A stretch of DNA of 64,000 nt from the NCBI RefSeq assembly GCF_022458985.1, contig NC_061790.1:2715001-2779000 (forward strand). Direction: 5' to 3'. The position numbers and the translations under genes are program-made. The notes beneath the pieces were generated by a model. It saw only the letters and a program-made list of their open reading frames with translations, ran no database searches and was not told the DNA's origin. This DNA comes from Mugil cephalus (taxonomy: Eukaryota > Chordata > Actinopteri > Mugiliformes > Mugilidae). Below, piece after piece: positions 5,418 to 30,870 of the stretch. Each line of letters begins with the position of its first letter. The stretch's first letter is position 1.

Positions 5418-8400
5418 TGTCTCCACTGGTACTAATCCTCATGTTTCTGCTTCGGTTTAAAGGTAATTGACCATTTTTTTGTTGCTTTCTTAATTGTTTA
5501 TACCTCTTTTTAAAAAAATAAAGTGAAATAAAATGCAACTTTAACTATACTTGCTGTGGAATTGGTAAAATAATTAGAAGGTATGAGGATTCTTGTATTT
5601 TAAACTGAGCAAGATCTGTTGATAGCACAAGAAGTGTTAGGGCCGGCTAGGGTTAGGGTTAGGGTCAGGGCTCGAGATAGGGCTAGGGTTAGGGTTATTG
5701 TCGGGGTTAGGGGTATTGTTAGGGTTAGGGTTACCGTTGGAGTTGGGGTTAGGGTTATTCTCAGGGTTAGGGTTCGCCCTGTCAGTGTGATAAACCTCCA
5801 CACACTCTGCTCTGAGTCTGAATTTCAATAACAAGATAGAGATCCAAAAAAATCACTATTCCTTTAGTTAAAATTGTTGAACTTTGAAGAATTAGTAGAT
5901 CACAGTATTTTGCAAATCATGATTAAATTATATATATATATAAATGTTACCAATCAACATCCAGAAAAGATTTGAACAAAGAGAAAGCAAGTTAAAAGGA
6001 TCAGATTCAGGATTAAACTTATGGAACGTTGTGTTTCTGTGAAAGAAATCAGGTTATGGATCAATCTGAACTAAGAAATCAAAGAATCCAAATTTATATT
6101 TAGAAGAACAATCAAAGCCAGTATGTTAAGGAAATATAACCAGACGTGTTAGTTTGATTGTGTAGTCATGAAAGGTCTGCAAACATTTATTTTCATTTCT
6201 TTTGTTGTTGTTTGGTTTTCATGATGGATTTGTATCTTTGGAACTAAAATGGACACGTGACATTCAGTGTTGGCTAATACCTATTTTATTTGTAAATTGA
6301 TTCTTGGGGTAAAGTGTCATATTATATCAGATTATTATTCTTTCTGCTCCCTTTCATCCAGATTTGGGAACGTTTGTGTTAACCTCTAAACTGTGACATG
6401 GAGCGTCATCTAGTGGTGTTGAGCATAAACTACATTTTTAGCTGCAATCACCACATTATTGTGGAGTGTCTGCTGCAAACCACAAGTTCAAGTTTTCTAA
6501 TCCTGATGTGTTTGAGCCAAATAAATGAAAATACAATCAGACTGGTTGGATATGAGCAGAATACTGAGCGTCTGAATCTTCAAATCAGCTCTTAAGCTCA
6601 GGTAACCATGCTTGTTCTGCAGTTCTCAAAATTCTCAAAAGACAAAACGAAGCCTTTTAATCTTTTTCTAAATCTCTGTAAGTTGTTTATTTCTGCATTT
6701 GTTTAGACGCAATATAAAAATGTAGATTTGAAAAATCATTTATTCCCATTTCACCTTTAATACAGTTCCTATCACTTATGAAAGGTCTGACTCTAGCTGC
6801 GTTTCAATTCTAGTTTTTCTAAAAATAAAAGTGATATTTCTGAAATTTCGATAAGGTCCAATTGCTGTTTGTTGTCATTGAACGGTGTTTTGCAAATGAG
6901 CTGTAATTCTTGTAAAGTCTCGTCTGGTGATATCTCATAAATGTCTTAAATTTTTCTCTTAACCTCCTGAGACCCTGCGTCCTCATATGGGGACATTAAG
7001 TTTCAGGTTTCATTGCAGATTATTCTACTTCATTTAAACCCCTTGTCCTTGTTAGTGGACACCTTAGTCTGCCATCTAGTGGTAGCCAAGGGTCAATACA
7101 CTAGTCGGTAAAAACACAATAGTGGATTCATTCTACAGACGATTTTACGCTTATTAACGTTCCTAGTTTGATACGACGTGCATACTTAAGAAATGTTGTC
7201 AAAAGCAAAGAACTACCATGTGGCATTTGAGGATGTGACTTTATTATAATATAAATAATGAAATAACCCCAGTGTCCACGAGGACATTATTTTTGTTTTT
7301 TTTTGTTTTTTTTTCAAAAACTACAACGTCCTATTGAAAGAAGATACTTAGTTTTTATACGTCTTCGGTCCTGCTGATCCCAAACACCTTGGCGAAATTA
7401 AAAATGTGAAGCAGACAAAAGCTTGGGTCTCAAGAGGTTAAAGATGAACTTCAAATAAACTGGTCACATGACCCCCTGCATCATCTCCGGTGACGGGGAA
7501 TTGAGAAAAAAGTGTTTCCATTGCACTTTTGCAATAATGTTTTTTATCGATACGTCTGAAAAACCACCTCATATGAGCTTTAGATATCTGAGAGGTTTTT
7601 TGAAACCTTACCCATTTTTTATTGAAATATTTAGCACATTCCCAGGAGGAATGGAAACGCAGCTAATTGATAAACATGTTCACTTGCTTCCAGCAGATGT
7701 CAGAGGACACTTTACTCTCTATCACAGACCAGGAGGAGACGTCTTCCTGCCCTGTGAGGTGTCCTTGAAAGTGAAATGCTCCGTCATTAACTGGCTTTAC
7801 ACCAGAGATCCGTCTCGGACCATATTCGTGGCAGAGAACGGAAACGTTAGCAGGAACTCCGCCCGGCTCAGTCTGACCAGGAACTGCTTTCTGACCATCA
7901 GCAACATCACGGCAGAGGACGCTGGTCTCTACACCTGCCGGCCTGGAAAGAGCACTAACCACAACACACTGGTGAATCTAAACATTCTGACCAGTGAGTC
8001 TTTTTAAATGGGCCGATTATTTTCTCTTATAAACATATCACACAGATTTGAATAGTTCTACTAAGTGAAGATCATTTACATCGGGGGGGTCAAACTTAGT
8101 CTAATTTAATCTCAAGGGGGGTGTAATTGTAATGTCTTTGTTGGAGAGGCTTTACTTGATAATGACGGACCAGACTGTGTCCTTTGGTCAAATCATCCAT
8201 CAGTCAGTGTCAACTTTTTAAAATAACACTCACGGTCATGGGGAGTGAGTGTATTAGTATATTCAATAAAATACGTGTTTTCCTCGTCCATTCTTGCCAA
8301 AATAGCCCATTGAAATATGCTAACCGGCATTTACAGTTTGTAGTGTTTGAGATGTTTTGCCTCCAGTTAAGTCCCGCCCCTCAAAAAATGCCACATTGTG

Positions 8401-10755
8401 TACAAACCCTGAAGGGGTCTATATTAACTTTTTTTTTTTTTCAGTCTCTCCATCTCCACCAGATGCTGATCCAAACAGTGGTAGAACTGTCACATTAGAG
8501 TGCTCTCTGTCAAAATTCAAAGGATTCCCTTATTGTCAACCAAACAGCATCCGGTGGCTGGATGAGTCAGGAGCTGAGCTGGATGGTGAAGTAGTTGAGT
8601 ACAAGCTCAGTGGACAGAAGAACTGTGGTTCTCGTCTGACTGTGAAACGCCAGAGTGGACACAACAGAAGATACACCTGCCAGTATTTTGAGGGAGACAG
8701 TGTGAAGATAGAAGCTCACTACACTCCTGTCTTCTCAGGTAGGACACCAAACACAAACCAATCTAGCCTCTTTCTCCAGTTTCTGTGAACTCATCATTTG
8801 GACCATGTCCTTTCCACAGAGTCCTCAGACTCCACAGAGTCCACAGATGTCACAGACTCCACAGAGTCCACAGAGTCCTCAGACTCCACAGAGTCCACTC
8901 CCTGGTCTCCTCTGGCCTACGTCATGTTGTGTCTGCGGATCACGACACTGATCCTGATGATTGGAATCACCGTTATTGTCATTAGAGACAAAGGTGAGAC
9001 GGTTCCAGTTGAAATTTAACATAAATCAGAAGTTGTGGATTTAACCAGAGCTCTGTTAATGTTTCTCTTTCCAGGAAGAAAGAAGCCACTGGAACACAGC
9101 AATGTGAGTAAAAAAAAAAAAAAAAAAAATTAGATCAGGAAAGACTTTGGTCTGGGTGAACGATAAAGATTTATTTTATAACGTGCACATAAGAAAATTG
9201 TGAAACGATTAGACCAAGTAGAGACGTCATAGATTTGGAGGGACGATGAACCCTAATAATTGACATTGGATGTGGAAACTGGACATGACAAGAGCTAAGG
9301 AAAAACTTATTTAAAATTTGATATTTAATTTGATTGAGGTAGTGACAAAATCTGATGTAATATTGGACTCCGGCAGTCACCTGAGACTGAACTCCACGAC
9401 TGATTTGAAACTTAAAATGCGATACTTTGAGCACGAGCAAGACAATACAAAGGTATGTACACTGTAACATGTTGCTCAACTCCATTCATGCATCTCTGCG
9501 TGGGTCCATGGGAACCCTCAGGTTGTACCCTGGCGTCAAAGTTTTTTATTTTTTTTTTCCTACAGGCACGTGTTCATTAGACGTTTTCATATTAAATCAG
9601 ATGATTGTAATAACATGCAAACAGATTTTTATGGCAACAAACCGTACACAGCTGTCACAGGCTTGGATAACCCAGTTCACCAACAAGTGAATAAAAAGAA
9701 ATCCCTAGCTAAGGATATTTATTCTTTGATGCTAGAGCTAGCTAAGCGGTCCTGGAATTTACATGTAGTTCTTATTTGGTGTAATGTTTATGAATTAATA
9801 TCATTTAGTGCTAATTTCCAATGGTTGAAAACATTTTTATATTCAGCTCATCATATTCAGAATGTGCTATATTCTGACTCTCTCTTCCACGTTTGTTAGG
9901 GATGCAGGAAGACTGTGTCTTTACTGGACAAGTCTCACATGTCCCAGGAATGGGTGGACCCAATTTCAAGTTCCTAGCTCCGTTATTATATTTTTTATTT
10001 GTTAAAAAAATTACCTAATTTATCACAGATTTTTTGTTTTTATGAGATAATTTACAGTTTGAACAAGAAGTACTTCGGTTTAGCATGTCTTGTTGTACTT
10101 TTATTGGTATATTATATGGGGTGAAATATACCCAGTGTTAGTGATGGTGTTCTTAATTATAACGTTTAACGTGTGTTCTAGGGTTAAGGTAGTCTTAGCC
10201 CATTGACTGGATAACCCACGGGGGTCAAACATTCGACCCCCAGGTCAAAGCCGGCCCGTCAGAGGGTCTAATCTGGCCCAGGTCATGATATGTGAAACTT
10301 TAATAGAAGACTGCAGTTTCAGGAAGACTGGACAACAGAACATGAACCCAGAACTGAACAGAAGAGGGCAGCAATGTGCTGAAATTGCACTAATTTTTCT
10401 TCATTAAATGTAATTTTTTTTCACAATGTACTTGTTCTCCTTGACTTAAAACAAAGGGAAACTGTTATTATTTATGTGTTATTATGCTGTTACTGGTCAG
10501 TCTGCTTAAATTCAAAACTGGGCTGTATGCGGCCCCCTGAACTAAAATGAGTTTGACACCCATGTGACAACAGAAGAACCAAAATACTGAATGTTGTCTC
10601 CGAATCCCAAACCATGAGGTGACAGCCGATGGATGCCCAGATCAAGTTGAGATCAAACCCTCTTAGTTGTCACTTTTAAAGCATCTTTTAGTTTAATACT
10701 ACTTGTTTCACAGGTTCCTAATGTTGGTGCCAATCCCGAGGATAGACCCAAATGA
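5418..10755 (+). CDS. IGR1: two-Ig-domain type I membrane receptor, short tail, Arg in TM helix
   Basis: Six exons are read from splice signals: 5418-5463 (leader, MSPLVLILMFLLRFK), 7697-7993 (V-type), 8445-8738 (C2/I-type), 8820-8993 (stalk plus TM), 9075-9103 and 10714-10755 (tail and stop). They total 293 aa. The V domain has the B/F cysteines (LPCEV, LYTCRPG), an extra cysteine pair, Trp in VINWLYTRD and the DAGLYTC motif. The second domain again has four cysteines and ends YTCQ...[12 protein letters not shown]. The stalk is a Ser/Thr/Glu repeat. The TM helix contains an Arg (VMLCLRITTLILM), as in receptors that pair with ITAM adaptors. The tail has no tyrosine. It belongs to an uncharacterised teleost multigene Ig family that recalls DICP/NITR-type receptors; exact family name and ligand are unknown. 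Intron 1 is homologous to IGR2 intron 1, which supports the leader exon. Confidence 0.78.
5638..5777 (+). repeat. degenerate telomere-like (GGGTTA)n tract in IGR1 intron 1
   Basis: About 140 bp of interrupted GGGTTA units with many substitutions. Related tracts recur at 31868-31885 and 32181-32726. It reads as an interstitial telomere-like microsatellite. The open frames it creates on both strands are artefacts. Confidence 0.8.
6959..7441. mobile_element. TTAA-flanked MITE (piggyBac-like), family 2, copy 2, in IGR1 intron 1
   Basis: TTAA at 6959-6962 and 7438-7441. The left end reads CCTCCTGAGACCCTGCGTCC and the right end is its imperfect complement. It shares its ends with the element at 3145-3680, in opposite orientation as judged by the better-preserved end. 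Confidence 0.7.
8080..8165. mobile_element. probable hAT-type MITE fragment in IGR1 intron 2
   Basis: GGGGGGGTCAAACTTAGTCTAA resembles the left end of the element at 10217-10564 and of a common fish repeat with GGGGTCAAAC ends. No matching right end is visible, so it is a fragment at best. Confidence 0.35.
8820..8902 (+). repeat. coding minisatellite in the IGR1 stalk (Asp/Glu-Ser-Thr repeats)
   Basis: GACTCCACAGAGTCC-type units repeat through the start of the TM exon and encode about 26 residues of SDSTES-type sequence. The matching exons of IGR2 and IGR3 keep only one or two units (DSTQRS; DVPDSSDSTHRS). The product would be a Ser/Thr-rich, probably O-glycosylated spacer. Confidence 0.8.
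10217..10564. mobile_element. hAT-like MITE in IGR1 intron 5
   Basis: The ends are imperfect inverted repeats: CACGGGGGTCAAAC at the left and the complement of CATGGGTGTCAAAC at the right. The interior has the GGCCCGTCAGAGGG / TGCGGCCCCCTGAACTAAAATG text of a very common fish non-autonomous hAT element. There is no coding capacity. Confidence 0.6.
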
Positions 10756-11225: not shown

Positions 11226-11284
<59 letters not shown>

Positions 11285-12255: not shown

Positions 12256-12274
12256 TAACACAAAAAGAGGAAAT
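12256..12274 (+). promoter_or_regulatory. degenerate RUNX-like + ETS-like motif pair, IGR2 promoter
   Basis: TAACACAAAAAGAGGAAAT lies 61 bp before the IGR2 start. The RUNX half is off-consensus (AACACA instead of ACCACA) while the GAGGAA ETS half is kept. Surrounding 5' sequence aligns with the IGR1 upstream region (GTACRCRRACRCCTAAAGAAC). Confidence 0.35.
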
Positions 12275-12334
12275 GTCAACACTCTGGTAGTTGTGTCACA
12301 GAGACAAAAAGTGTTTAAAGACATCAGAGACAGA

Positions 12335-15300
12335 ATGTCTTCACTGGGAATAATCCTCATTTTTCTGCTTCAGTTTGAAGGTAAGTTACAGATTTATGTT
12401 TGCTTAACTTTTTATAACTTTTAACCCTTTAAAGCCTGAAGTATGGCTGGTTTTCCGTTTAAAACATGTGGTATTTGACTTACTGTAACTCACAGTGGTT
12501 TGCTCTACTGGCAAAATTCAAAGTAACTCTTAATTCCTTGATAGATCATGGAAAAGTTACATTTCACATGATATTTAATATAAAACTAATTCTACAGGTG
12601 TCCATTTCTTGGTGTGATTCTAGACTGTGACACAGTTTCCCTGTGTTCCTCTTTTTATTTTTTATTTTAGTCGGCAGAAAGAGACAGAGGCATCTAGTGG
12701 TGTTGAGCAGAAATGTCCCTTTTCAGATCAGCCACAACGTTATTGCTCTGCTACAAACCACCTGTTTTTAGAGCTGACATGTCATTATCTCTGAAGATCA
12801 GTAAACCTCATATCAGTAAATGATTTTTGGTCCTTTTCAAGATCAAAATTGTGGCTTTTCAATGCAAATGCAGTTTCTCTGCTTTCTCTTCCCCTCATTT
12901 CACTTTTTACTTCAGTCCACGTCTGGAAGCAGAAAATTAACATGAAATGACTGTTTCTTTGCTGCAGGTGTCAGAGGAGGACAAGTCTTTGTTTATTACA
13001 GGCCAGGAAGTGATGTCATTCTACCCTGTGACCATGTGTTCTCAACATGCTCCAACATTAACTGGCTTTACAACAGAGATGCATCTTCTAAAACTATAGT
13101 TGAAGTTGATAGTGGAAAAGTTAAGGTCTCAGCTCGAGCTTCCAGACTGAGTCTGTCCAGTAACTGCTCTCTGATCATCAACAACGTCACTGCTGAGGAT
13201 GCTGGTCTCTACACCTGTCGGCCTGGAAGAACCACTGACATGGATACATTTGTGTTTCTAAATATTTTGACTAGTGAGTATTTTAACATGAACGCATTCA
13301 GCTGGACACAACCTCATGTTCATTGGAAACCCTCCCTCAGCTGTGTATGAGTGGATGGTGACGATTAAACATCTGTCGTCATGGGGACAACTCTTTAATA
13401 TAAAACTAATTCTACAGGTGTCCATTTCTTGGTGTGATTCTAGACTGTGACACAGTTTCCCTGTGTTCCTCTTTTTATTTTTTATTTTAGTCGGCAGAAA
13501 GAGACAGAGGCATCTAGTGGTGTTGAGCAGAAATGTCCCTTTTCAGAGCAGCCACAACGTTATTGCTCTGCTACAAACCACCGGTTTTTAGAGCTGACAT
13601 GTCATTATCTCTGAAGATCAGTAAACCTCATATCAGTAAATGATTTTTGGTCCTTTTCAAGATCAAAATTGTGGCTTTTCAATGCAAATGCAGTTTCTCT
13701 GCTTTCTCTTCCCCTCATTTCACTTTTTACTTCAGTCCACGTCTGGAAGCAGAAAATTAACATGAAATGACTGTTTCTTTGTTGCAGGTGCCAGAGGAGG
13801 ACTTGTCTATGTTTATTACAGACCAGGAAGTGATGTCATTCTACCCTGTGACCATGTGTTCTCAACATGCTCCAACATTAACTGGCTTTACAACAGAGAT
13901 ACATCATCTGAAACTATAAGTGAAGTCGATAGTGGAAAAGTTAGGAAGGTCTCAGCTCGAGCTTCCAGACTGAGTCTGTCCAGTAACTGCTCTCTGATCA
14001 TCAACAACGTCGCTGCTGAGGATGCTGGTCGATACACCTGTCGGCCTGGAAGAACCACTGACATGGATACATTTGTGTCTCTAAATATTTTGACTAGTGA
14101 GTATTTTAACATGAACGCATTTAGCTGGACACAACCTCATGTTCATTGGAAACCCTCCCTCAGCTGTGTATGAGTGGATGGTGACGATTAAACATCTGTC
14201 GTCATGGGTAGAAGTCTTTAAAGTCCAGAACAAGCTGCAGTGTTTGGGACAGCATTGAACAATGAGGGACCCTCTCAGTGATGGACTCAGGTCGTACATG
14301 GATGTGCCTTGTTTTTATTTGGTTCAGTCCATCTTCATGTTTTAAATCCATTAAACTAATGTTTTTGTTAGACATCAAATCAAACTGGGACGACAACAAA
14401 AAATGGACAGGAACTTATTGGTGTCTTGTCATGAAGAAAATCTCTAAAGTTTTTTCTGCTGCAATAATTATCATCACTTTTCTTTCAGTCTCTCCATCTC
14501 CACCAGACGCTGATCCAAAGACGGATGGAAATGTCACATTAAAGTGCTCTCTGTTAAGATACGAAGTATCCCCTCGTTGTGAACTAAACAGCATCCGCTG
14601 GCTGAATGAGTCAGGAGCTGAGCTGGATGGAGCTCGGTTTGAGGTCGATGGACAGAAGAACTGTGTTTCTTATATGACTGTGAAGCATCAGAGTGGAGAC
14701 AACATCAGATACACCTGCCAGTTTGTTGACAGAGACAGTGTGAAGATAGAAGCTCACTACACTCCTGTCTTCTCAGGTAGGACACCAAGTACAAGCCAAT
14801 CTAGCCTCTTTCTCTAGTTTCCATAAACTCTCATCATTTGAACCATGTGCTGTCCTCAGACTCCACTCAGCGGTCTGCACTGGGCTACGTCATGCTGCTC
14901 CTGAAGATCATAGGACTGATCCTGTTCATTGTGATCACCGTTCTCATCATCAGAGACAAAGGTGAGGCAGTTCAGATAATAACCAACTGAACCGAAATCT
15001 GAAGTCTGGAAGTCAACCACATCTCTCTCTATCTCTCATTCTCTCTTTCCAGGAAGAAAGAAGTCACTGGAAGACAAGAATGTGAGTTAAACAAAACATT
15101 TTCACCACCCACATAATCACTACATCCCTGTAATGTGTCATTTGCCCCCTGGTACATGTATCCATGTCCTACAGTCAGTAGTTCCCAAAAGCCTGAAAAT
15201 ATATATTTAAGGAAACATTCAAGGATTAGTTAACTCGTTGTCTCTTCTCATGTCAACTTAAAAATGGTGACTTGTGTAAATATATTTATTATAAGTGGTG

Positions 15301-16598
15301 CACCACATTCCAAAAAAGTCTGTTTTGCATTATCAGAATAACTTCGTCTTTGAGCTCATCATCTGTTATAATTTCCTGATTCGGAGTCTAAAAGGCATAA
15401 ACGTTGAGCTGTTGCCTGGTTCTCATGATTGATAGCTCTGAAGCAGATGAAAGGCTTTGGTTTGTCATACGGATCACTTAGTGAGTGTGAGCTGCTTTGA
15501 GAGTTACAAGTGTTGTATCAGATTGCGCATTTTGTGAAGAATCGTTACTTAAAATAGATAAATTAGTTACGTAGTTGGACAGAAACACAACTAAATTTGC
15601 AAAGGCCAATAGAGTGTAGCGCGAGCGTAAGTCAACAAAAAGGTGGCAATGTGTACGGGGGTTGTGGTACATCGTAAAAGTGATGATCCTGCTTTAGTGG
15701 AGCAAAGGGTTCACTTCCCACTGATGGTTATAATCTATGTTAGATTTAATTTATGATATATGTATATGATTTATTTATAACATTTAAACCACAATATCAT
15801 GTTGTGTAGTCAAACAGGAATGTGTGTGGCAAATCAAGTCCCACACAAACGTGAAGCAATAAGACACATCTCAAATGTACTACATTTCATTGTCCACTAG
15901 ATGTCCTAACAGAGCAAACTGTGTCATTAAAGCTTCCAATAATGAACCTTTTTTTCAAATCACGTGTCAAGGCCTCAACAAAGTCTCTATTGGGCATCAC
16001 TACTGCTGGGTAAGGCTGGGAGGGACAGACAGAAACCAGCAGAGACAAACTGACAAAAGACAAAGGCAGAGGGAGGACTTTACATACTCACCAAACTAAA
16101 TGGAAAACAAGAAACAGGAGTTACAAATGAGGGAAGGAGCACCGAGCAATCACAATGTGCTGGAAGTAAAATTAGAAGATAGAAGCATCCAAGTATCATA
16201 ACACAATAAAAATGGGAGCATAAGAAACAGGGATGACAATATGCTGAATCTAAAGGCTCTGTAGTTTGGACCAGATGTCAAATTCCAGCACAAAACTGCT
16301 GTATTGATTTTAAATAGTTTACCAAGGTCCAACTTTGCAGTGGTGGCTACTGCACAGGACAGGAAGTCTTAGAGACATCTGCTAGCTGGATAACTGTTAA
16401 CCAGCCAATGGGCTGTTTCCCAGACTGGTCAGCAGCGTCCTGAACCCTTTAGTTGTCACCACAGAGGTTCCCTTGAAGCTCCTCTTAGCTTATTATGTGT
16501 TGTGTTGTGTTGTGTTGTGTTGTTCACAGGTTCATGATGACGATGCCATTGCTGATGATGCACCCGACTATGAAAATGCAGCTTCTGCACTGCACTGA
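12335..16598 (+). CDS. IGR2: Ig receptor with two tandem V exons, Lys in TM helix, acidic tail with Tyr
   Basis: Exons: 12335-12380 (leader MSSLGIILIFLLQFE), 12968-13273 (V1), 13788-14096 (V2), 14489-14776 (C2/I-type), 14860-14961 (stalk plus TM), 15053-15081 and 16530-16598 (tail). With both V exons the product is 382 aa; with one, about 280 aa. Both are phase-1 exons, so either form stays in frame. Each V has four cysteines, WLYNRD and EDAG(L/R)YTCRPG, with N-glycosylation sites NCS and NVT. The C2/I domain has four cysteines. The TM core VMLLLKIIGLILFIVITVLII carries a central Lys, as in ITAM-adaptor-coupled receptors. The tail holds DDDAIADDAPDYENA; YEN fits the YxN consensus of Grb2-type SH2 domains. 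Family name and ligand are unknown. The 3' half is nearly duplicated in IGR3. Confidence 0.78.
12575..14214 (+). repeat. 820-bp direct tandem duplication containing the IGR2 V exon
   Basis: Sequence from about 12575 to 13394 repeats at 13395-14214 with an 820-bp offset, including intron, V exon and donor. The left junctions share a short TTTAATATAAAAC stretch, suggesting a microhomology-type duplication. The few differences include an extra codon in V2 (KVRKVSA against KVKVSA). Confidence 0.85.
15082..16490. other. IGR2 intron 6
   Basis: No exon is recognised between the short GRKKSLEDKN exon and the last exon. The left part (to about 15425) and the region just before the last exon align with the corresponding IGR3 intron, whose middle is interrupted by insertions. 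Confidence 0.5.
16496..16524 (+). repeat. (TGTGT)n pentanucleotide at the splice acceptor of the IGR2 last exon
   Basis: TGTGT/TGTTG units run up to the TTCACAG acceptor at 16529, replacing a normal pyrimidine tract with a GT-rich one. IGR3 has the same arrangement at about 23601-23626 with fewer units. Confidence 0.8.
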
Positions 16599-16691
16599 AC
16601 CAGCTTCAGCTCATCATTTACCTTCTCTTCTGTCATGCACACTCAACCACACGCAATGTGTAGCCAATGCACCTTATACACATGCACCTAA

Positions 16692-16695
<4 letters not shown>

Positions 16696-16757
<62 letters not shown>

Positions 16758-16768
16758 ACACACACACC
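16696..16768. repeat. (CA)n microsatellite in IGR2 3' UTR
   Basis: A run of CA dinucleotides with one interruption. The IGR3 counterpart at 23796-23822 is much shorter. Confidence 0.95.
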
Positions 16769-17239
16769 TTTTGTGTTTTTATAGTTTATATATTTTAAAT
16801 ATTTACTACTATTGTAACATTATTTTCAAACCTGCATGTCTCTGTGTTTCTCATCCTCATCAAGCTGATGGAAATGTGACTTTCTCATAAAGACGACTAA
16901 AGTATCTGTCTTTCTATCAGTTTGTAATCATTGATAGAAATCCACCATAAGACGTCCGTCTTCAGCAAAATTTTAGATCTATAGATTTCAGTCACACACA
17001 TCACAAGTTGGTACTATATGTGCCATCACCACAAATGATGTGAAATGAGCCAAATTAAGGAAGTTAAGAGGCCAATAATGCTGTTTCATTGTGTCTTTCG
17101 TAGGTGTCAGGAAGGAGATTGTTTAATGGTGGTGTAAGCAGTGAGACTTCTGTTTTCCTGTGAATAAGTCATCTAGAGGCATAGCTATTTATATCTGAAC
17201 ACAGGTTTCTGCTTCGTAAATGTTTGATGTGCAAATATG

Positions 17240-17245
17240 AATAAA
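17240..17245 (+). terminator. IGR2 poly(A) signal
   Basis: AATAAA about 640 bp after the stop. It is conserved with its surroundings at 24312-24317 downstream of IGR3. Confidence 0.55.
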
Positions 17246-17800
17246 GCTGATGAATGGTGAGAATCTGTTGTGACTGGAAAGTCCTTTATTGAAGGTCCTT
17301 TTAACTACATTTAAAACACTTTATTTTCTCCTTCCAAGCCTCCTGTTTTAATGTGGTCAGCCTAAAATCCAGACTGAGCTACTGCAGAAATACGAATTGC
17401 ATCACGTTCTACCCAATGGAAGAAGACCTGGCTTCCTGTGTAGATATAAAAGGCTCACGCTAAGCTAATGAAAATGTACCTGGTGGTTTTGGTCCACTTA
17501 AGGCTCTTGTTGGAGGTCGGCAGCTTGATGGACCTTGTTTACGTTGTAACGGTCACGAGGACGTATGATTGGACAAAGACTGTTTGGGGGCGGGGTTTTG
17601 AGAAAGGTCAATCCTCCAACAAGTCAGAGCCATTTTGATGTAAACAGATTCAACTGTAACGCTTCTGACAATTGTCCTAAGAATTTAATTGGCCCGGCAG
17701 ATCTTTGCTGGAGCATGATCAGTTTTCAAAACGTGTGAAAATGGATCTTGCAACATGCTCTGCGGGGGGGTGGGGGGTAGTCATCTTTTCATCTTAAGTC

Positions 17801-17817
17801 GACCACAAAGAGGAACT
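17801..17817 (+). promoter_or_regulatory. RUNX-like + ETS-like motif pair, IGR3 promoter
   Basis: GACCACAAAGAGGAACT lies 74 bp before the IGR3 start codon and is identical at the same distance in IGR4. Confidence 0.4.
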
Positions 17818-17890
17818 AGTGTCATCGCCTACTGATCAGAACCGGAGTCAAGCCTCACAACAACCACCCGCTGACGGAGAATGACAGAGC

Positions 17891-20800: not shown

Positions 20801-23701
20801 ACTTATTGGTGTCTTGTCATGAAGAAAATCTCTAAAGTTTTTCTGCTGCAATAATTATCATCACTTTTCTTTCAGTCTCTCCATCTCCAGCAGACGCTGA
20901 TCCAAAGACGGATGGGAATGTCACATTAAAGTGCTCTCTGTCAAGATACGAAGGATCCCCTCGTTGTCAACTAAACAGCATCCGCTGGCTGAATGAGTCA
21001 GGAGCTGAGCTGGATGGAGCTCGGTTTGAGGTCGATGGACAGAAGAACTGTGTTTCTTATATGACTGTGAAGCGTCAGAGTGGAGACAACAGCAGATACA
21101 CCTGCCAGTTTGTTGACAGAGACAGTGTGAAGATAGAAGCTCACCACACTCCTGTCTTCTCAGGTAGGACACCAAGTACAAGCCAATCTAGCCTCTTTCT
21201 CTAGTTTCCATAAACTCTCATCATTTGAACCATGTCCTTTCCACAGATGTCCCAGACTCCTCAGACTCCACTCACCGGTCTGCACTGGGCTACGTCATGC
21301 TGCTCCTGAAGATCATAGGACTGATCCTGTTCATTGTGATCACCGTTCTCATCATCAGAGGCAAAGGTGAGGCAGTTCAGATAATAACCAACTGAACCGA
21401 AATCTGAAGTCTGGAAGTCAACCACATCTCTCTCTCTCTCACTCTCTTTCCAGGAAGAAAGAAGTCACTGGAAGACAAGAATGTGAGTTAAACAAAACAT
21501 TTTCACCACCCACATAATCACTACATCCCTGTAATGTGTAATTTTCCCCCTGGTACATGTATCCATGTCCTACAGTCAGTGGTTCCCAAAAGCCTGAAAA
21601 TATATATTTAAGGAAACATTCAAGGATTAGTTAACTTGTTGTCTCTTCTCACTTCAATTTAAAAAGGGTCACTTGTATATATATTTATCATAAGTGGTGC
21701 ATCAAACATGGTGGTGCACCACATTCCAAAAAATCCTTCAGTCTGTTTTGCATAATCAGAATAACTTCCTCTTTGAGCTCATCATCCGTCATAATTTCCT
21801 GATTCGGAATCTTAAAAGCAAAAACGTTGAGCTGTTGCCTGGTTCTCATGATGTGTCCTTACTGACTTAGGCCTTAGGCCAAAGGCACATAGTCCATCCA
21901 TGAAGCTCCTCCATTCACTCCGGTCTTGGGCCCTTCACTTCAAGTGTTGCCAGGACAACCCTTCTTCCTTCATCTCCTGCTTTGTGGTTCTTCTCCAGGT
22001 GGTTCTGGGTCTGCCTCTCTTTCTCTGTCCCTGTGGGTTCCACGTCAGCACCTGTTTTATGATTGAGTTCTTTCTTCTGAGTGTGTGGCTCATTGACTTC
22101 CATTGCCTCCTCTAGATTTGAATTTCTATTGAGTCTTGTTTGGTGAGTTCTCACAGGTTGGGGTTTGTGATGTTACTGAGTCAGTATATTCTCAGGAGGC
22201 ACCATTTAATGAAGGTCTGCAGCTTACTGAGTACGGTGATGGTGGTTTTCGAAGATTTGTAGCTTGGTCCTGAGTGGCAGGTTCTTTGCCTTCCAGATAT
22301 TGCTTAGCATGTTCAGTGTTGTCCTTGCCTTTCCAATCCTGGCCCGGACATCGTCGACACAAATGATGCTCGTGAGGTATGAAGCTGTTTACATCCTCTC
22401 ATGGGTTCCGGTCCAGGATTATTGGTGTGTTGTTCTTGCTGCTGATACACGTTACTTTGGATTTGATGAGTTTAATTTGAGGCCGAGAGCAGAGCAGCAG
22501 TTTTCTCCCATTTTCCTGATTTTCCCTGCATCTGTATGTATGAGCCAGTAGCACCAGGTCATCATCGAAATCCAGATCTTCCAGCTGCTCTGCCAAGTTC
22601 CACTGTATGACGGTTCATCTGTTGCTCTTTGTTTCTTTCACCATCCAGGCTATGCAGAGGAGGAAAAGAAAGTGTGAGAACAGGCCACATACCAGTCAGG
22701 ACCTCAAAAGCTTCTCGTATACATCCTTCATGAAGGACTTGTCCTCTCATCCCTTGGTTCACATGATGGCGCCCTGTTTATTTATCTCTATACGCGTCTT
22801 AAAGATGCTGATATATGACCTGAACAGATATCTGGATGTGGGTTACGTTTCAACAAAGTGTGCGAATCAAATGCAAGACGCTAAACAAAATAAGAGTTCA
22901 GGTTTAGCAACGCGATGTCAGGATGGGTGGGGGCTGAGTTACGGATCCAGGTGCAGGACAATAAGGAAGAGGAAGGGAATCTAGGGAAAAGGGGAGTTTA
23001 ATGAAAACGAACAAAACGTGATGCATTGAGGCAGGGAGTTCCACAAAATACAAAAATACAAAAAAAAGAATCATGACATGGCATGGAGACAAAATCATGG
23101 AGACAAGGACTGTGGCGTAGAGACAACATTAACGACGCAACAAGGAACAAAGCGAAGGTAGGGCTATAAAAACACAAGAAGGCTCCGGGATGACAAGACA
23201 CAGGTGAAACTCATGAGGCCAATCAAACCAATAAGCAATCAACTGACATAAGGAAACACAACTGACGGGAAATCTAAAACTTAACAAAATAAAACAGGAA
23301 ACACGACATGGCACAGACAGACATGACACGAGGAGATACCACAGACAGGAAACTAAGAGACTTGTTAAAATAAAACAGGAAACTGTAAAACGTGATCACA
23401 AAATAAAAGACAGACACAGAGCCTTGACACATAAACAGGCACCATGTAATAGTATTTAGTCCACAAATAACCAGGGAAGATATCACCCTGGGAAGGACAG
23501 ACAGAAATCAGCAGAGACAAACTGTGGTTAAGGTTCTTAATTTGGTTTGATTGGTGTTGACCAATCAAACTAGTAGATAGAAGCATCCATCACATGCTTA
23601 TTGTGTGTTGTGTTGTGTTGTGTTGTTCACAGGTTCATGATGACGATGCCATTGCTGATGATGCACCCGACTATGAAAATGCAGCTTCTGCACCGCACTG
23701 A
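17891..23701 (+). CDS. IGR3: four-Ig-domain (V-C2-V-C2) receptor, Lys in TM helix; chimeric build
   Basis: Exons: 17891-17936 (leader [15 protein letters not shown]), 18226-18528 (V), 18954-19241 (C2/I-type), 20145-20450 (V), 20876-21163 (C2/I-type), 21247-21366 (stalk plus TM), 21454-21482 and 23633-23701 (tail). They total 482 aa in one continuous frame. Promoter, leader and first V-C2 pair match IGR4; the second V-C2 pair, TM, tail and 3' UTR match IGR2. The simplest reading is two neighbouring genes joined by loss of the first gene's TM/tail and the second gene's leader. The TM has the same Lys as IGR2, and the tail the same DYENA motif. An upstream in-frame acceptor at 18174 would lengthen the leader by 17 aa. 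Alternatively the locus may be two transcription units, but no second leader exon is visible between 19242 and 20144. Confidence 0.72.
19510..19833 (+). mobile_element. solo-LTR-like fossil in an IGR3 intron
   Basis: A roughly 325-bp insert with TGTCA...TGACA ends interrupts intron sequence that is continuous in IGR2. It contains a TTTTCATTAAA stretch near its right end. A related element lies in opposite orientation at 22916-23429. No internal coding part is present; it is an old, non-coding remnant. Confidence 0.5.
21856..22630 (-). mobile_element. LINE reverse-transcriptase fragment in IGR3 intron 7
   Basis: Read on the minus strand, about 22550-22600 encodes QLEDLDFDDDLVLLAHTY, the catalytic FADD-box region of a non-LTR reverse transcriptase (here DDD), followed by a KLIKSKVT-type segment and SKNNTPI. 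Farther on, 21890-22030 gives TWRR...RSEWRSF, typical of the ORF2 C-terminus. It is 5'-truncated with several breaks. The clade is uncertain (I/Nimb- or RTE-like). Confidence 0.65.
22916..23429 (-). mobile_element. LTR-like fossil, reverse orientation, IGR3 intron 7
   Basis: Ends are TGTCA...TGACA when read on the minus strand, with internal text related to 19510-19833 (TTTCCTGTTTTATTTTGTTAA, TTTTCATTAAA). It is non-coding and old. Confidence 0.45.
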
Positions 23702-23795
23702 ACCAGCTTCAGCTCATCATTTACTTTCTCTTCTGTCATGCACACTCAACCACATACAATGTGTAGCCAATGCACCTTATACACATGCACCTAAT

Positions 23796-23822
23796 CACAC
23801 ACACACACACACACACACACAC
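23796..23822. repeat. (CA)n microsatellite in IGR3 3' UTR
   Basis: Short CA run homologous to the longer one after IGR2. Confidence 0.9.
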
Positions 23823-24311
23823 CTTTTGTGTTTTTATAGTTTATATATTTTATATATTTACTACTATTGTAACATTCTTTTTCAAACCTGCATGTCCCTG
23901 TGTTTCTCATCCTCATCAAGCTGATGGAAATGTGACTTTCTCATAAAGATGACTACAGTATCTGTCTTTCTATCTTTCTATCAGTTTGTAATCATTGATA
24001 GAAATCTACCATAAGACATCCGTCTTCAGTAAAATTTTAGATCTATAGATTTCAGTCACACATCACAGTTGTTTACAAGTTGGTACTATTTGTGCCATCA
24101 CCACATATTATTTGAAATGAGCCAAATTAAGGAAGTTAAGAGGCCAATAATGCTGTTTCATTGTGTCTTTCGTAGGTGTCAGGAAGGAGATTGTTTAACG
24201 GTGGTGTAAGCAGTGAGACTTCTGTTTTCCCATGAATAAGTCATCTAGAGGCATAGCTATTTATATCTGGACACAGGTTTCTGCTTTGTAAATGTTTGAT
24301 GTGCAAATATG

Positions 24312-24317
24312 AATAAA
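24312..24317 (+). terminator. IGR3 poly(A) signal
   Basis: AATAAA in the same context as 17240-17245 downstream of IGR2. Confidence 0.55.
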
Positions 24318-26882
24318 GCTGATGAACGGTGAGAATCTGTTGTGACTGGAAAGTCCTTTATTGAAGGTCCTTTTAACTACATTTAAAACACTTTATTTTC
24401 TCCTTCCAAGCCTTCTGTTGTAATGTGGTCACCCTAAAATCCAGACTGAGCTACTGCAGAAATACGAATTGCATCACGTTCTACCCAATGGAAGAAGACC
24501 TGGCTTCCTGTGTAGATATAAAAGGCTCACGCTAAGCTAATGAAAATGTATCTGGTGGTTTTGGGTCTTTGTTTTCCATTGGTGTCATCATTTCCTGTTT
24601 TATTTGGAAGTGCCACCAGTTTCCTAAACCACTGGAACGTAATTAATTGTCCTTTCGTAAAAGCCGGTTACAGAACGTAGTGGAGGGGTATATACAAAAT
24701 CTTAAAATATGCAACCAAGGGGAAAATATCAAGATGACGGTAGTACAGGGTTGGGATACTCAGGAGGAGGCTGTCCATTCACAAAATGCTACATGAAAGA
24801 TGAAAACAAAATAAGTTTAAACTACCTGACGCTGTGGTCAACTTTGATGTAAATTGACTCAACATATCGTTAGAGAGCGCTCCCAGCATTGAGACTCAAC
24901 GCAACAGCTAAAGTTGGCTAGCTAATGTGAACTCGCCGGCTCACTAACATGAAGTTAACTAACATTAGTTTGGCACTAATATTACTAATATTAGCCAATA
25001 GAAACCATAACTTTGATATAAGGTTTCGTATATATGAGCGTCTTGCTAGCTCAAGTTTGGCTAGCTAGTTATCACTGTGGCTTTCGGCCTTTCTTGCCTC
25101 GGAGCAGACGTATCTATGCTTGTTTATTTTCTTGAGATGTAGTTGGAGTGGGGCCTTCCACAGTGTTTGGTCCACTTAAGGCACTTAAGGAAGAACAGGA
25201 CTCCCCCAAGTACCTAGTGTCTGTCTTACATTTGTCTTCCCCATTTAGCTTGTTGGAGGTCGGCAGCTTGATGGACCTTGTTTACATAGTAACAGCTGCT
25301 AGGATGCATGATTGGGCAAAGGCTGCTTGGGGGCGGGGTTTTGCGAAAGGTCACTCCAGAACAGCTTTCCACCACAAAATTAACAAATAAAAGTATGGGT
25401 TGGGAAGTTGGTCTGACTTCCAGGCTATTGTTGGAATTTAAAGTAGCTTTTTGTTCTGTTGTCTTCCTGTGTTTGGGTCTCGCTTCCTGTAACTCTCTCA
25501 GAAAAATCACACGATCATACGCTAATGAAACACGATTGTGATTACTACATTAAGTTTATGCTGAGATCCTCCTGGATCCAACACACTGGATGTTTGACGA
25601 GGTCATCTCAAAGCAGCTGAGTCATACAGACACATACTAGTCATAGTCTGGTAGGCCTGGCTATGTCAAAGTCATGTCACTGGTGTAATGACTCATTACA
25701 GTGTTTAAATAATTCTTGCCCAATATTCAAAGCCAAGCTGCAACCTCTGGTGAAAGAGTCGTGGCATCCATTTCTCTACAGTCTATGACTTTACACATGT
25801 TTACAGCCCTGAAACAAAAGCAGTTTTAGTCTCTGTAGCTAATTTCTCCATTCACAACAACTGTACATGAGGTGAATTTTATTAGAGTCATCTGCATGTG
25901 ATGCATAACTTAAGGCAGCGTATGTAAAATCTGCACTGCCCCCTCCCCCCTTCTTGTTCACAGCCGTTGTTCCACTCCCTCCTCCCCCGCACTTAAACCC
26001 AGACATAAAATACATAAACATACATACATGCATGCATAGGCATGGAGAAGTCACTAGCAATACGACATGAATGCACATCGACTCATATAGAGTAAAATGA
26101 CCTGTGATTGGTGGAAAAATAATGTCACGGGGCGATTTTTATAAAACCTGTAAATACAACCAGGAGGAGGCACAGAAGTCAATTGATAACACTTGAATTA
26201 CAATATGCTAACAATCTTTTATTGAATTTGGACAAAACAACACCAAAAATAAACTACACACCCCACCTTTAAGTACATGACTGCTTTTTAGGAACGGCTG
26301 AGTGTGCTCACAGTTTGCTAGCAGCAGAAACTAGAAACATGACCACGAAGTAGAAGACAGACAGAGAAGTTTGGGACGTAGCTCTGGGTGACCACTTCCC
26401 CTTCTTTTATTTCTAAAGTATGATGTTTGGTTTTAATGAAGTGACATCTTTGTTTGTTGAATGCATTGCTATGAATTTTTGTCAGACACAGTCACTGCAG
26501 ACACAGACCAAACATCAATTACAAGCTAATATTTGTTGGTCTTGACCTAAACGCACTGTAAGCGGTGTCTCAGAGCTGCTGGCACGACATATTACCAAAC
26601 ATGACACTTCCTGTTTTCACCAGTGACAGGACGCCATTCAGCGATATGAATGGAAATGACACATACAAAACTTTGACAGCTGTTTGTAGCACACCTTAAC
26701 AATCGTCCATCTAAATTAATATGACCTTTTCACGTATGAAGTGGAATTTCTTTGTGAAGTTAAAGTTACATGTGTGTTAAATCTGTGGTTTGTTCAGGAG
26801 ACGCACACAAAATGTGGGGAAATGGATCTTACAACAGGCTCTGCGGGGGTGTTGCTGTCATGGCATCTTTTCATCTTAAGTC
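24318..26882. other. IGR3-IGR4 intergenic region
   Basis: No gene is seen. About 25240-25360 is homologous to the IGR3 upstream region at 17495-17615 (GTTGGAGGTCGGCAGCTTGA). The next homologous block is only at 26815, so roughly 1.2-1.4 kb of unrelated DNA has been inserted into the ancestral promoter region of IGR4. That insert is not identified. Confidence 0.5.
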
Positions 26883-26899
26883 GACCACAAAGAGGAACT
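26883..26899 (+). promoter_or_regulatory. RUNX-like + ETS-like motif pair, IGR4 promoter
   Basis: GACCACAAAGAGGAACT, 74 bp before the start codon, identical to IGR3. Confidence 0.4.
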
Positions 26900-26972
26900 A
26901 GTGTCATCGCCTACTGATCAGAACCGGAGTCAAGCCTCACAACAACCACCCGCTGACGGAGAATGACAGAGC

Positions 26973-29900
26973 ATGGCCTTCCTGGAGCTGATACTAGTTT
27001 TATTTCTGCAGTTTGAAGGTAAAAATCTTTATTTCAAATATTTCTAAGAGACGATTCTCAGATTTATTCAGCTGGAAGATAAATGTGGGTAGTATTTAAT
27101 TTTGGGGGTTAGTTTTAATGGTGAACTAAAGTTATTGCTGTAAGTGTTACAAGCTGCTGAATTAAGTCATAAATGAAACTTTCATATCTGTGGTTGCAAA
27201 TATTAAAGTTGGTGATTCAGTGATGCAGTACATATAGGTACTTATATTTGTTTGCAGGGGGACAGTTTATCATTTCTTCTGCAATGTGTGTTCTTTACTT
27301 TGTTGCAGGTGTCAGAGGAAGAGATGTCTATGTTTATTACAGACCAGGAAGTGATGTCATTCTACCCTGTGACCGTGTGTTCTCAACATGCTCCAACATT
27401 AACTGGCTTTACAACAGAGATGCATCTTCTAAAACTATAGGTGAAGTTGATAGTGGAAAAGTTAAGGTCTCAGCTCAAGCTTCCAGACTGAGTCTGTCCA
27501 GTAACTGCTCTCTGATCATCAACAACGTCACTGCTGAGGATGCTGGTCGATACGCCTGTCGGCCTGGAAGAACCACTGACATGGATACACTTGTGTATCT
27601 AAATATTTTGACTAGTGAGTATTTTGACTTGAACAAATTCAGCTGGACACAACCTCATGTTTATTGGAAACCCTCCCTCAGCTGCGTATGAGTGGATGGT
27701 GAGGATTAAACATCTGTCGTCATGGGGACAACTCTTTAAAGTCCAGAACAAGCTGCCATGTTTGGGACAGCCTTGAACAATGAGGGACCCTCTTAGTGAT
27801 TTAGATGGACTCAGGTCGTACATGGATGTGCCTGTTTGTTCTGTCAAACATTGAGATTTCTTTCTTTCTCACATTTTAAATCCATTAAACTAATGTTTTT
27901 GTTAGACATCAAATCAAACTGGGACGACAACAAAAGATGGACAGGAACTTATTGGTGTCTTGTCATGAAGAAAATCTCTAAAGTTTTTCTGCTGCAATAA
28001 TTATCATCACTTTTCTTTCAGTCTCTCCATCTCCACCAGACGCTGATCCAAAGACGGATGGAACTGTCACATTAAAGTGCTCTCTGTTAAGATACGATGG
28101 ATTCCCTCGTTGTCAACTAAACAGCATCCGCTGGCTGAATGAGTCAGGAGCTGAGCTGGATGGAGCTCGGTTTGAGGTCGATGGACAGAAGAACTGTGTT
28201 TCTTATCTGACTGTGAAGCATCAGAGTGGAAAAAACAGAAGATACACCTGCCAGTTTGTTGAGGGAGACAGTGTGAAGATAGAAGCTCACTACACTCCTG
28301 TCTTCTCAGGTAGGACAACATACTGTATGATCAGTAAGAAATCAAATCAAACAAAATCAAGCGTGCTTCGTAACGGTTTCTGTCGACAGATCCCTTAGAT
28401 CCTAACTCGTCCCTCCTCATAATCATCGGTGCAGTGGTCGGAGTGGTCGTGGTGCTTCTTGTCATCGCTGTTCTTCTCCTCAAAAGCAGGAGAAGAGCCA
28501 AAGTGCAAGAGAATGAAACCAGTACGGTATTTTATTAATGTAGCGTTCATATGTATACATGCTAAGCTCTGCAGTCTTGTAGCATCTCTTTCTTTCTGCT
28601 TGTTTCTTTTCCCCTAAATGTTGTGCATATTCATCAGACCGATGACTTCTTCCTGATTTGTTTGCATGTGCATCGAGCTCTCAGACCCATGTACGATAAA
28701 TTGACACATGTACACTTACACCACAGCCAACTTCCTTATTGTTTGCTTGTTGCTATGGAAACCTCTGAGATTTCTGAGATTGTTTTTTCTGCAGCATTTT
28801 CACGAGTATGATGACATTAACGACAAATCCTTTCTAGTTCCAGACGTCCAAAAATCAACGTACCCCTCTGTGAGTAAAGTGTTTCTTAACTGTATCTCAT
28901 ATTAGTCTACAACCTATGTTCACACTTACAGTAAGAGGCTTGTGCTTTTACTTCCTTCCTGTATGATTTAAAAAATGAGGAAACATTAATATTGGAAATA
29001 TATGAAGTCATCATTTGTTAATAGCTCACTGGTCCTTCTCATCATGAGGCAATATTAAGTTACACAGAAAAAAAGAGCACAGAGGTAAAAAAAAAAAAAA
29101 AAGAAAAAAGAAAAGTTACTCTGCTTTGCTCAACCACTACACATACCAAATGTTATGCATTCCAACTGAAATCTTTGTTTATTTGTTCACTTTTGCATAA
29201 AACAGCCTTTAATTCCCAAGGAGGGACTTGGTTAGATTGTTTTTGGCGCTTTCAAAGAGAAAAGAGTAATTGTAAAACCACAAAATGTCATATAATGTTG
29301 ACGCTCTGTGCTCGCTGCTGCCACAGGTGGCCACGAACTGAATTGCAACAGCATTGATTAATTCCATAATGTCAGATTGTTTTCCAAAATCTTTTTACAG
29401 ATTAGTAAAAGTGAGAAATAATTAGAGAATAATGAAACATTAGTATTGGAAAAACTCATCACTTATTAATAGCTCGTTGGTCCTTCTTAGAGGCAACATT
29501 TAGTTACGCAGAAAAAAACACTAAGTAAAATCCCAAGTTATTCTACTTGGCTCAACCAATACCAGTTCCATTCTAACTGAAATATTTGTTTATTTGTTCA
29601 CTTTTATCTGAAATATTTTGAGGCCTTTAATTCCCAAGGACAGTCTACTTCAGGATTACTGGGTACCGGGGCTTTTAAAGAAAACAAATGTTGCTGAATA
29701 ATTGTAAAACCACAAAATGCCATATAACGATGCCTCTCTGCACTCACTGCCCACCCACAGGTGGCCACAAACTGAGCTGTAACGACATTGATGAACTCCA
29801 TAATGTCAGATTGTCTCAAATAGTAACAAAAACATTTGCAGATACAACAGAGTAGCACAAACATTAATGCAGGGAAGAAGTGTGGATTTTATATTTGCTC

Positions 29901-30870
29901 TGTATTTGCACTCAGGATGACCCAGAGAGCGGTCTGACCTACGCCACTGTCGACCACTCCAATCAAAAGGCCACTGCCAGGACAATGGTAAGGAACCTGT
30001 GGTGTGGAAGATACACTTTTTCCATACACTTAAACTTTAATAGGATGATATATCACCCATTAAGTGTTTACGGCATTTGTAGTTACCTGAATTATATTAA
30101 ACAAATCCACCTGTGCACACCACGCTGACAGAAAGGAGTTTTCAGAGTAGTCCTGCATGCACAACCATGATTAAACATGTTAGGATGCCTTCAAGTGGTC
30201 ATTGGAGGAACTGCACATTTTGGCATCTTAAAACAATTTGAGCAAATCAGCTGTATCTTCTTGCATGGCTTCTCTCTCTCTGTGCTGCATATCATAACTG
30301 TTTATCCTTGTAGCTATTTAACCAAACAGAATCAAATTTTCCAGATTTTACTAAGTCTAAGTTTAAGCACGAGGTCCTTAAGCCACAGGGAAGCTTTGGT
30401 GGTGACTTCCACTCCAACAAAATTCTCCTACGTGCTAATAACTTTCTCCTAATTATCTGGGGATCTGATAATATTGCATGTGACATCAACGTCATATTTT
30501 AGTGACTCTGGTGCCATGTGACACCTACTGCATGTACCTGCGATGTTGAAATAAATTTTGGGGAGTTTGGGTGTCCGTATACTTGTGACTGGGTCGAGTA
30601 TCATCCACATCCAGAGGCTGTTTTGATGTGAACCAGTGACTAATTCATAAGAGGAGAATCCAGACAACCACTGTGCCGTAGAGTAAATCAGGACTCATTT
30701 GCATGTGCGTTTAAATCATGTTTAAATCATGTTTAAATCAAGTCTGTTTTGTGCTGCAGATCATACCGCATGAGGAGGCTGTGACTTACTCTACAGTCAA
30801 GACTCCCGTGAAGACAGAAGATGATCCCAGCAGTTTCTACATCTATGACAACAAAGGATTTTTAACATAG
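26973..30870 (+). CDS. IGR4: two-Ig-domain receptor with two ITIMs (inhibitory type)
   Basis: Exons: 26973-27018 (leader [15 protein letters not shown]), 27309-27614 (V), 28022-28309 (C2/I-type), 28390-28526 (short stalk, TM, start of tail), 28795-28869, 29916-29987 and 30760-30870. They total 344 aa. The ectodomain is close to the first half of IGR3. The TM helix (about [21 protein letters not shown]) has no charged residue and is followed by KSRRR. The tail has EYDDI, then LTYATV and VTYSTV, both fitting the ITIM consensus [ILVS]xYxx[ILV], plus tyrosines in SFYIYDN. ITIMs recruit SHP-type phosphatases in known inhibitory receptors; here that is inferred. TM and tail exons are unrelated to those of IGR1-3. 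An alternative acceptor at 27257 would add 17 aa to the leader. Confidence 0.82.
28975..29850 (+). repeat. diverged tandem duplication (about 440 bp) in IGR4 intron 5
   Basis: The segment from about 28975 to 29405 is repeated at about 29430-29850: both begin with GGAAACATTA/GAAACATTAG and ATTGGAAA, include ACCACAAAATG(T/C)CATATAA and end near CATAATGTCAGATTGT. Identity is visibly lower than in the IGR2 duplication, so it is older. Confidence 0.7.

Follow-up and report, generated by a model that had tools for sequence, protein, structure and literature searches.

Mammalian KIR are paired receptors with near-identical ectodomains, their activating forms derived from inhibitory ones, and one view of such pairs is that pathogens mimicking the ligands of inhibitory receptors drive their evolution. 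As a general rule, activating receptors with a basic residue in the transmembrane (TM) helix pair with adaptors carrying an immunoreceptor tyrosine-based activation motif (ITAM), and receptors carrying the inhibitory counterpart (ITIM) recruit SHP phosphatases (PMC3022915, PMC2442602). Among the immunoglobulin (Ig) receptors of fish, NITRs occur as clustered inhibitory and activating forms with a V-type first domain, a basic TM residue marking the activating minority, and activating members interact with Dap12 (PMC2442602); many NILT genes have a 46-nucleotide leader exon, with phase-1 Ig exons and phase-0 ITIM exons (PMC3022915); and catfish LITR 2.6b, with a TM lysine and a short ITIM-less tail, is reported to bind the ITAM adaptors FcR-gamma, FcR-gamma-L and CD3-zeta-L, not DAP12 (PMC4810170). 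The cyprinid DICPs form a further teleost multigene family of Ig receptors, with ITIM-bearing members that recruit SHP1; zebrafish dicp genes have been used as markers of natural killer-like cells (PMC5340972), and DICP Ig domains are reported to bind lipids (PMC6869251).

Here we describe four predicted gene models, IGR1-4, on the forward strand of a 64,000-nucleotide stretch of the Mugil cephalus genome (contig NC_061790.1, here C21; C21:2,715,001-2,779,000; the window). They occupy window positions 5417-30870, starting one base before the 5418 given in a preliminary description of the same letters. We put the probability at about 0.7 that they form a small paired-receptor array within a large Ig family on C21 whose readable last exons carry ITIMs, IGR1-3 being activating receptors with a basic TM of their own and IGR4 an inhibitory one, judged from sequence. 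They are a fresh example of a known paired design and no new kind of system. The inhibitory form, the three activating ones, which are probably derived, and the recombination breakpoints all fall within 26 kb, with about 40 related exons for the first Ig domain (D1) on the same chromosome; because the array is compact and stands beside a family with ITIM tails in the seven last exons readable in full, the direction and mechanism of the switch should be testable in related species.

Anatomy of the four receptors

Taking the best 21-residue hydrophobic window of each TM exon as its helix, we find VMLCLRITTLILMIGITVIVI in IGR1 and VMLLLKIIGLILFIVITVLII in both IGR2 and IGR3. Helix position 6 is basic in each of them (Arg, Lys and Lys for IGR1, IGR2 and IGR3); the IGR4 helix is uncharged. 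The short tails of IGR1-3 contain no ITIM: IGR1 ends in VPNVGANPEDRPK, without a tyrosine, and IGR2 and IGR3 end in VHDDDAIADDAPDYENAASA(L/P)H, with one YxN tyrosine (PDYENA). IGR4 carries LTYATV and VTYSTV in separate phase-0 exons, their tyrosines 25 residues apart. The preliminary description had already noted the basic residues and missing ITIMs of IGR1-3 and the uncharged helix and two ITIMs of IGR4, and our models bear it out on both counts, adding that the basic residues share one helix position.

The ITIM consensus is [ILVS]xYxx[LVI], which two of the six tyrosines in the IGR4 tail fit; the rough chance of at least two doing so is ~0.06, weak alone. Against a profile of seven family ITIM exons, none of 1000 shuffles equalled the score of the IGR4 last exon, so that its ITIMs go beyond chance, and a small local search matched its ITIM1 exon to one family ITIM1 peptide (E 0.004). 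A hidden ITIM1 exon sought in the introns of IGR1-3 gave no convincing match (best E 0.35).

The four models thus present linked genes with related ectodomains, and a basic TM with short tail set against a neutral TM with ITIMs; this predicted anatomy is what the paired-receptor reading rests on, and leaves it well supported. In the mechanism that we propose, IGR4, retaining a family-type ITIM tail, would on phosphorylation recruit SHP-type phosphatases, and IGR1-3, with a TM exon of their own bearing one Arg or Lys and with a short tail, would signal through ITAM adaptors (FcR-gamma, FcR-gamma-L, CD3-zeta-L or DAP12); with related V-type ectodomains, activating and inhibitory forms would see the same or related ligands. 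What the sequence shows is the anatomy, the homology, the duplication and how rare the basic TM is among readable family helices; that the genes are transcribed, that their products bind adaptors, phosphatases and a ligand, and that the change ran from inhibitory to activating we infer.

The models are consistent as genes: internal exon borders are GT/AG, phases agree and there is no internal stop. The IGR4 TM donor (after base 28526) was chosen among candidate splice sites, with the same join in the protein submitted to Pfam, and the final three IGR4 exons were read in frame. From signal peptide (SP) to tail, the architectures are SP-D1-D2-TM-short tail (IGR1), SP-D1a-D1b-D2-TM-short tail (IGR2), SP-D1a-D2a-D1b-D2b-TM-short tail (IGR3) and SP-D1-D2-TM-long tail (IGR4), giving two, three or four Ig domains per receptor. 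As D1a and D1b of IGR2 are phase 1 at both sides, either exon could be skipped. Pfam recognized V-set and other Ig models in all three proteins submitted (IGR1, IGR2 and IGR4).

Family context and direction of change

Across the genome (634.8 Mb in 24 contigs), 51 places match an IGR2 D1 query at E <= 0.001. C21 has 46 of them: 6 within the window, 38 at 2.79-3.49 Mb and 2 near 1.28-1.35 Mb. One of the five elsewhere, on C9, is strong (E 1.3e-12), and the remaining four have E 1e-5 or worse. At E <= 1e-6 a main-cluster query gave 50 places, of which C21 has 49 and C20 a single one that contains a stop. Such counts of D1 places are lower bounds, and because some places are fragments, genes are fewer than places. 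The D1 of the C21 family, that of the IGRs included, has four cysteines: besides the canonical pair, one precedes the C-strand Trp and another stands where the E-strand motif begins. Searched at E <= 0.001, the genome gave nothing for an IGR D2 query beyond its own five copies; profile comparison with the main-cluster D2 (probability 91.6, P 8e-7, 58 columns) makes it look like a diverged homologue. In a midpoint-rooted tree of 34 D1 exons (37 profile rows minus three), the six IGR D1 exons form one side of a branch with support 100/100, opposite 28 others, with IGR1 D1 on a long branch. By these comparisons IGR1-4 are a divergent branch of a larger C21 Ig receptor family, at its edge. The main cluster (C21:2791810-3492266) contains ~40 D1-like exons on both strands, apparently of one-Ig and two-Ig genes, together with some stop-bearing fragments; at C9:2072439-2075714 a lone D1-like exon with the same four-cysteine pattern is possibly a single-copy relative.

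Searching with a family last exon gave 15 places, none outside C21: the query's own and 14 more, each of them weak taken singly (E 6e-4 to 0.9). Seven of the eight readable family last exons, query included, carry an ITIM (VTYSTV three times, VVYSTV twice, VTYSTL and VIYSAV once each), the eighth being cut off; among the IGRs, this family-type last-exon ITIM is present in IGR4 only, and not in IGR1-3. In 24 other family TM exons, picked by hand for hydrophobicity from part of the C21 cluster, no basic residue falls at helix positions 4-18, and the IGR1-3 TM exon matched only its three places in the window when searched against the whole genome at E <= 10, with a 34-residue query that would miss diverged relatives. 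Because the ITIM is so common in readable last exons, the other helices carry no basic residue there and this TM exon is unmatched elsewhere, an inhibitory tail is probably what family members ordinarily have, the basic TM of IGR1-3 being the derived condition.

Several observations weigh against this picture. Arg lies at position 3, the outer edge, in 3 of the 24 family helices, Lys at position 19 in one, and several more have Arg just outside the hydrophobic window; given the outer-edge Arg, the label 'activating' may extend beyond IGR1-3. The IGR4 TM exon, used as a query, has itself as its only C21 match and ends in phase 0, whereas family TM exons seemingly end in phase 1, like those of IGR1-3, so that IGR4 is not a simple ancestral form. 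The IGR4 last exon, as a genome query at E <= 10, likewise finds only itself, and against a protein profile of the ITIM exon the last exons of IGR2 and IGR3 were equalled by 345 and 367 of 1000 shuffles and that of IGR1 by 64. The TM exons near C21:2842297, 2847630 and 2853551 have their outer-edge Arg within LLRSII(V/A)SVGLAALL, a placement that, we presume, recalls FcR-gamma-binding receptors and would make them possible further activating members.

The TM charge itself calls for caution, since in catfish LITR 2.6b a Lys-to-Ala change keeps adaptor binding, the lysine being dispensable for it (PMC4810170). IGR1-3 might accordingly not be adaptor-coupled at all: the PDYENA tail could signal directly through YxN-binding SH2 proteins, as the tyrosine of IGR2 and IGR3 would allow, or the receptors could be decoys or co-receptors in which Lys or Arg tunes surface expression. 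IGR1, however, lacks any tail tyrosine but has retained, as Arg, the basic residue of that helix place, which suggests that the charge is the conserved function, and we hold this alternative to be quite unlikely. Activating NITRs interact with Dap12 and LITR 2.6b with other adaptors, so that any of these could be the partner of IGR1-3; the charge is an indication and no proof.

Origin of the short tails

The last exons of IGR1 and IGR2 are homologous (0 of 2000 shuffles). At its start, the IGR2 last exon has a 17-base near-match to one family gene, reached by 0 of 300 dinucleotide, 1 of 2000 mononucleotide and 64 of 2000 codon shuffles; the dinucleotide control is lenient, unrelated upstream repeat matches having also reached 0 and 1 of 300. 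None of three other family genes matches there (21, 70 and 5 of 300; the match behind the 5 of 300 lies within a simple repeat), and the IGR1 last exon shows no match to the family exon (221 and 329 of 2000 shuffles). These results are no more than suggestive of the IGR2/3 last exon being an eroded ITIM exon, homology at the protein level being unsupported.

It is possible, as a tentative scenario, that a sub-lineage turned activating in place within an inhibitory family, gaining a basic-TM exon while the ITIM exon eroded to the acidic YxN (PDYENA) tail of IGR2 and IGR3 and was truncated before the tyrosine in IGR1, with tandem duplication afterwards combining an IGR4-like front and an activating back half into a four-Ig activator. 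If this were true, intermediate states would stand side by side, so that the change from stop to go could be read exon by exon.

Rearrangement and selection

Self-comparison of the window reveals a collinear chain in which 13694-15429 corresponds to 20023-21852 (91%), 16501-17492 to 23604-24564 (91%), 17506-17614 to 25249-25357 (87%) and 17727-19252 to 26808-28320 (94%); an additional match links 12515-12713 to 19328-19508 (75%). The front half of IGR3 is therefore collinear with the front of IGR4 and its back half with the back of IGR2, and IGR3 is, on this alignment, a fusion of an IGR4-like front half with an IGR2-like back half, produced via tandem duplication. That its front half is a plain copy of IGR4, downstream intron included, is partly contradicted: up to 19293 the DNA after D2a matches the activating-type intron, so that duplication and conversion may have come in either order.

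IGR4 ceases to be homologous to the others at 28320, 11 bases past its D2 exon, in agreement with distinct TM/tail modules behind a common predicted ectodomain. The preliminary description had proposed a paired system that arose by exchange of TM and tail exons; the paired anatomy and this breakpoint speak for it, but the history is more specific than exchange, with an ITIM exon that IGR4 has in common with other C21 family members, a basic TM exon for which no close copy was found outside IGR1-3, and the IGR3 fusion. The near-identity that it saw between the ectodomain of IGR4 and half of IGR3 holds for DNA (D1 93-95%, D2 95%) but not for protein, IGR4 D1 being 82% identical to IGR3 D1a, 87% to IGR3 D1b and 90% to IGR2 D1a; protein identity falls below DNA identity because most differences change an amino acid.

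Parsimony on the recent ectodomain copies, which without IGR1 number five for D1 and four for D2, gave 6 silent changes over 138 sites against 54 replacement changes over 453. The replacement excess has P 0.007 under equal rates and 0.001 with transitions weighted twofold (in the same order, 0.043 and 0.015 for D1 alone, 0.069 and 0.026 for D2 alone), in a test whose assumption of independence gene conversion violates. Because the D1-D2 intron, at 28 changes over 373 sites in four copies, falls between the silent and replacement rates, the signal is only moderate; it suggests diversifying selection on these copies. By a hand count on the predicted D2 structure, replacement positions make up 14 of 52 loop or end positions, BC and FG loops included, and 4 of 43 strand positions.

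The make-up of IGR1 is mosaic, with a synonymous divergence (dS) from the other copies of 0.11-0.13 in D2 and 0.70-0.81 in D1, the intron between them being ~47% identical. Such exon-scale homogenization, with D2 replacements mostly in loops, could mean that the likeness of the ectodomains is recent gene conversion only, IGR4 and IGR1-3 having no common ligand. We think this unlikely: D1 proteins within IGR2-4 are 82-92% identical in the pairs compared, and conversion itself keeps ectodomains alike.

The same plasticity could belong to an array decaying by birth and death, in which IGR1, with its truncated tail, and IGR3, a four-domain fusion, may be non-functional. Recent tandem rearrangement, the shortness of the IGR1 last exon and stop-bearing family places elsewhere in the genome would fit decay, which we nevertheless consider very unlikely, as the exons of all four models are free of stops and frameshifts and the replacement excess in the Ig exons goes with no more than three substitutions where the TM and tail exons of IGR2 align with those of IGR3 (two in the TM exon, none in the short exon and one in the last). 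The two TM exons also differ in length by 18 bases.

Comparison with described families

The likeness to mammalian KIR is one of design, the IGRs having a V-type D1 and a distinct D2 and not the C2-type domains that we take KIR to have; catfish LITR 2.6b, similar in its TM lysine and short tail and in the kind of adaptor predicted for IGR1-3, belongs by description to a different Ig family. DICPs, likewise compared by description, are similar in design and may or may not be kin to IGR1-4; ITIMs are present here by sequence. Zebrafish DICPs are reportedly linked to MHC class I, an association and not a definition of the family; none of 105 MHC_I matches lies on C21, with one on C18 and 104 on C14, these last in two large arrays at C14:21.06-24.08 Mb.

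NITRs resemble the IGRs in their V-type first domain and in clustering inhibitory forms with basic-TM activating ones. They have, however, a J or J-like FGXGTXLXV motif and six conserved cysteines in the second domain (PMC2442602), whereas the six IGR D1 exons end in LNILT, the five D2 exons end in TPVFS or TPVFL, and D2 has four cysteines in all five copies; for want of a J-like motif after D1 and of two D2 cysteines we reject NITR membership, a kinship that had been guessed at beforehand. The IGRs are like NILTs in leader length and exon phases, but salmon NILT Ig domains have extra cysteines in CX3C, CX6C or CX7C spacing (PMC3022915), and those of the IGRs (IGR4 numbering) lie 39 apart in D1 (C27 and C66) and 28 apart in D2 (C30 and C58), a difference on which NILT membership is rejected too.

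A PDB sequence search gave D1 general Ig similarity only (CEACAM, contactin, polymeric Ig receptor and antibody chains) and D2 chiefly antibody light chains (best E 0.012). The predicted D1 structure is poor (mean predicted local distance difference test score, pLDDT, 56.7); that of D2 is moderate (74.3), and in its fold search PD-L1, B7 and MHC-type domains rank first, none at E <= 0.001, so that no family is assigned from the D2 fold. Public microbial and viral collections yielded 26, 55 and 24 pattern matches, with none confirmed as a relative. No paper describing or naming a family with these features turned up in the literature searched, and gene models for part of so large a receptor family should be useful to fish immunologists.

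Features of the window

The coordinates are collected in Table 1. The stalk of IGR1 (8820-8905) is a short Ser/Thr/Glu/Asp-rich repeat, shorter in IGR2 and IGR3, and is likely length-variable.

Table 1. Predicted exons of IGR1-4 and extent of the tandem duplication, in window positions
Feature	Position	Strand	Basis
IGR1 signal-peptide exon (MSPLVLILMFLLRFK)	5417..5462	+	splice-consistent model
IGR1 D1 (V-type Ig) exon	7697..7993	+	model, Pfam
IGR1 D2 exon	8445..8738	+	model
IGR1 Ser/Thr-rich stalk and TM exon, Arg in helix	8820..8993	+	model, helix window
IGR1 short cytoplasmic exon GRKKPLEHSN	9075..9103	+	model
IGR1 last exon VPNVGANPEDRPK*, without tyrosine, homologous to IGR2 last exon	10714..10755	+	model, shuffle test
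IGR2 signal-peptide exon	12335..12380	+	model
IGR2 D1a exon	12968..13273	+	model
IGR2 D1b exon, tandem copy of D1a	13788..14096	+	model, self-comparison
IGR2 D2 exon	14489..14776	+	model
IGR2 TM exon, Lys in helix	14860..14961	+	model, helix window
IGR2 short cytoplasmic exon GRKKSLEDKN	15053..15081	+	model
IGR2 last exon VHDDDAIADDAPDYENAASALH*, single YxN tyrosine, without ITIM	16530..16598	+	model
IGR3 signal-peptide exon	17891..17936	+	model
IGR3 D1a exon	18226..18528	+	model
IGR3 D2a exon	18954..19241	+	model
IGR3 D1b exon	20145..20450	+	model
IGR3 D2b exon	20876..21163	+	model
IGR3 TM exon, Lys in helix	21247..21366	+	model, helix window
IGR3 short cytoplasmic exon	21454..21482	+	model
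IGR3 last exon VHDDDAIADDAPDYENAASAPH*	23633..23701	+	model
IGR4 signal-peptide exon	26973..27018	+	model
IGR4 D1 exon	27309..27614	+	model
IGR4 D2 exon	28022..28309	+	model
IGR4 TM exon, uncharged helix	28390..28526	+	model, donor from candidate list
IGR4 cytoplasmic exon, 25 residues	28795..28869	+	model; end read from sequence
IGR4 ITIM1 exon (LTYATV), phase 0	29916..29987	+	model, local search
IGR4 ITIM2 exon (VTYSTV), phase 0, homologue of the last exons in the family	30760..30870	+	model, profile test
Tandem duplication, copy 1 (back part of IGR2 to front half of IGR3), in pieces	12515..19252	+	self-comparison
Tandem duplication, copy 2, collinear (IGR3 back half to IGR4 front half), in pieces	19328..28320	+	self-comparison

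A P450 array separates the IGR genes from the main Ig cluster: on the reverse strand at 33436-62451, a P450 last-exon region is repeated in tandem six times, the copies being grouped at 33-43 kb and at 48-62 kb; the one open reading frame tested matches Pfam p450, and we take the copies to be CYP2K-like. As a name tag for the locus, CYP2K synteny gave nothing, the available part of a killifish CYP2K paper making no mention of Ig receptors (PMC5751882). Repeats occur at three further places: degenerate TTAGGG-like units, seen by eye, in IGR1 intron 1 (5648-5780); two ~400-base copies, 70% identical, in an IGR4 intron (28968-29814); and repeated stretches downstream of IGR4 (32040-32660).

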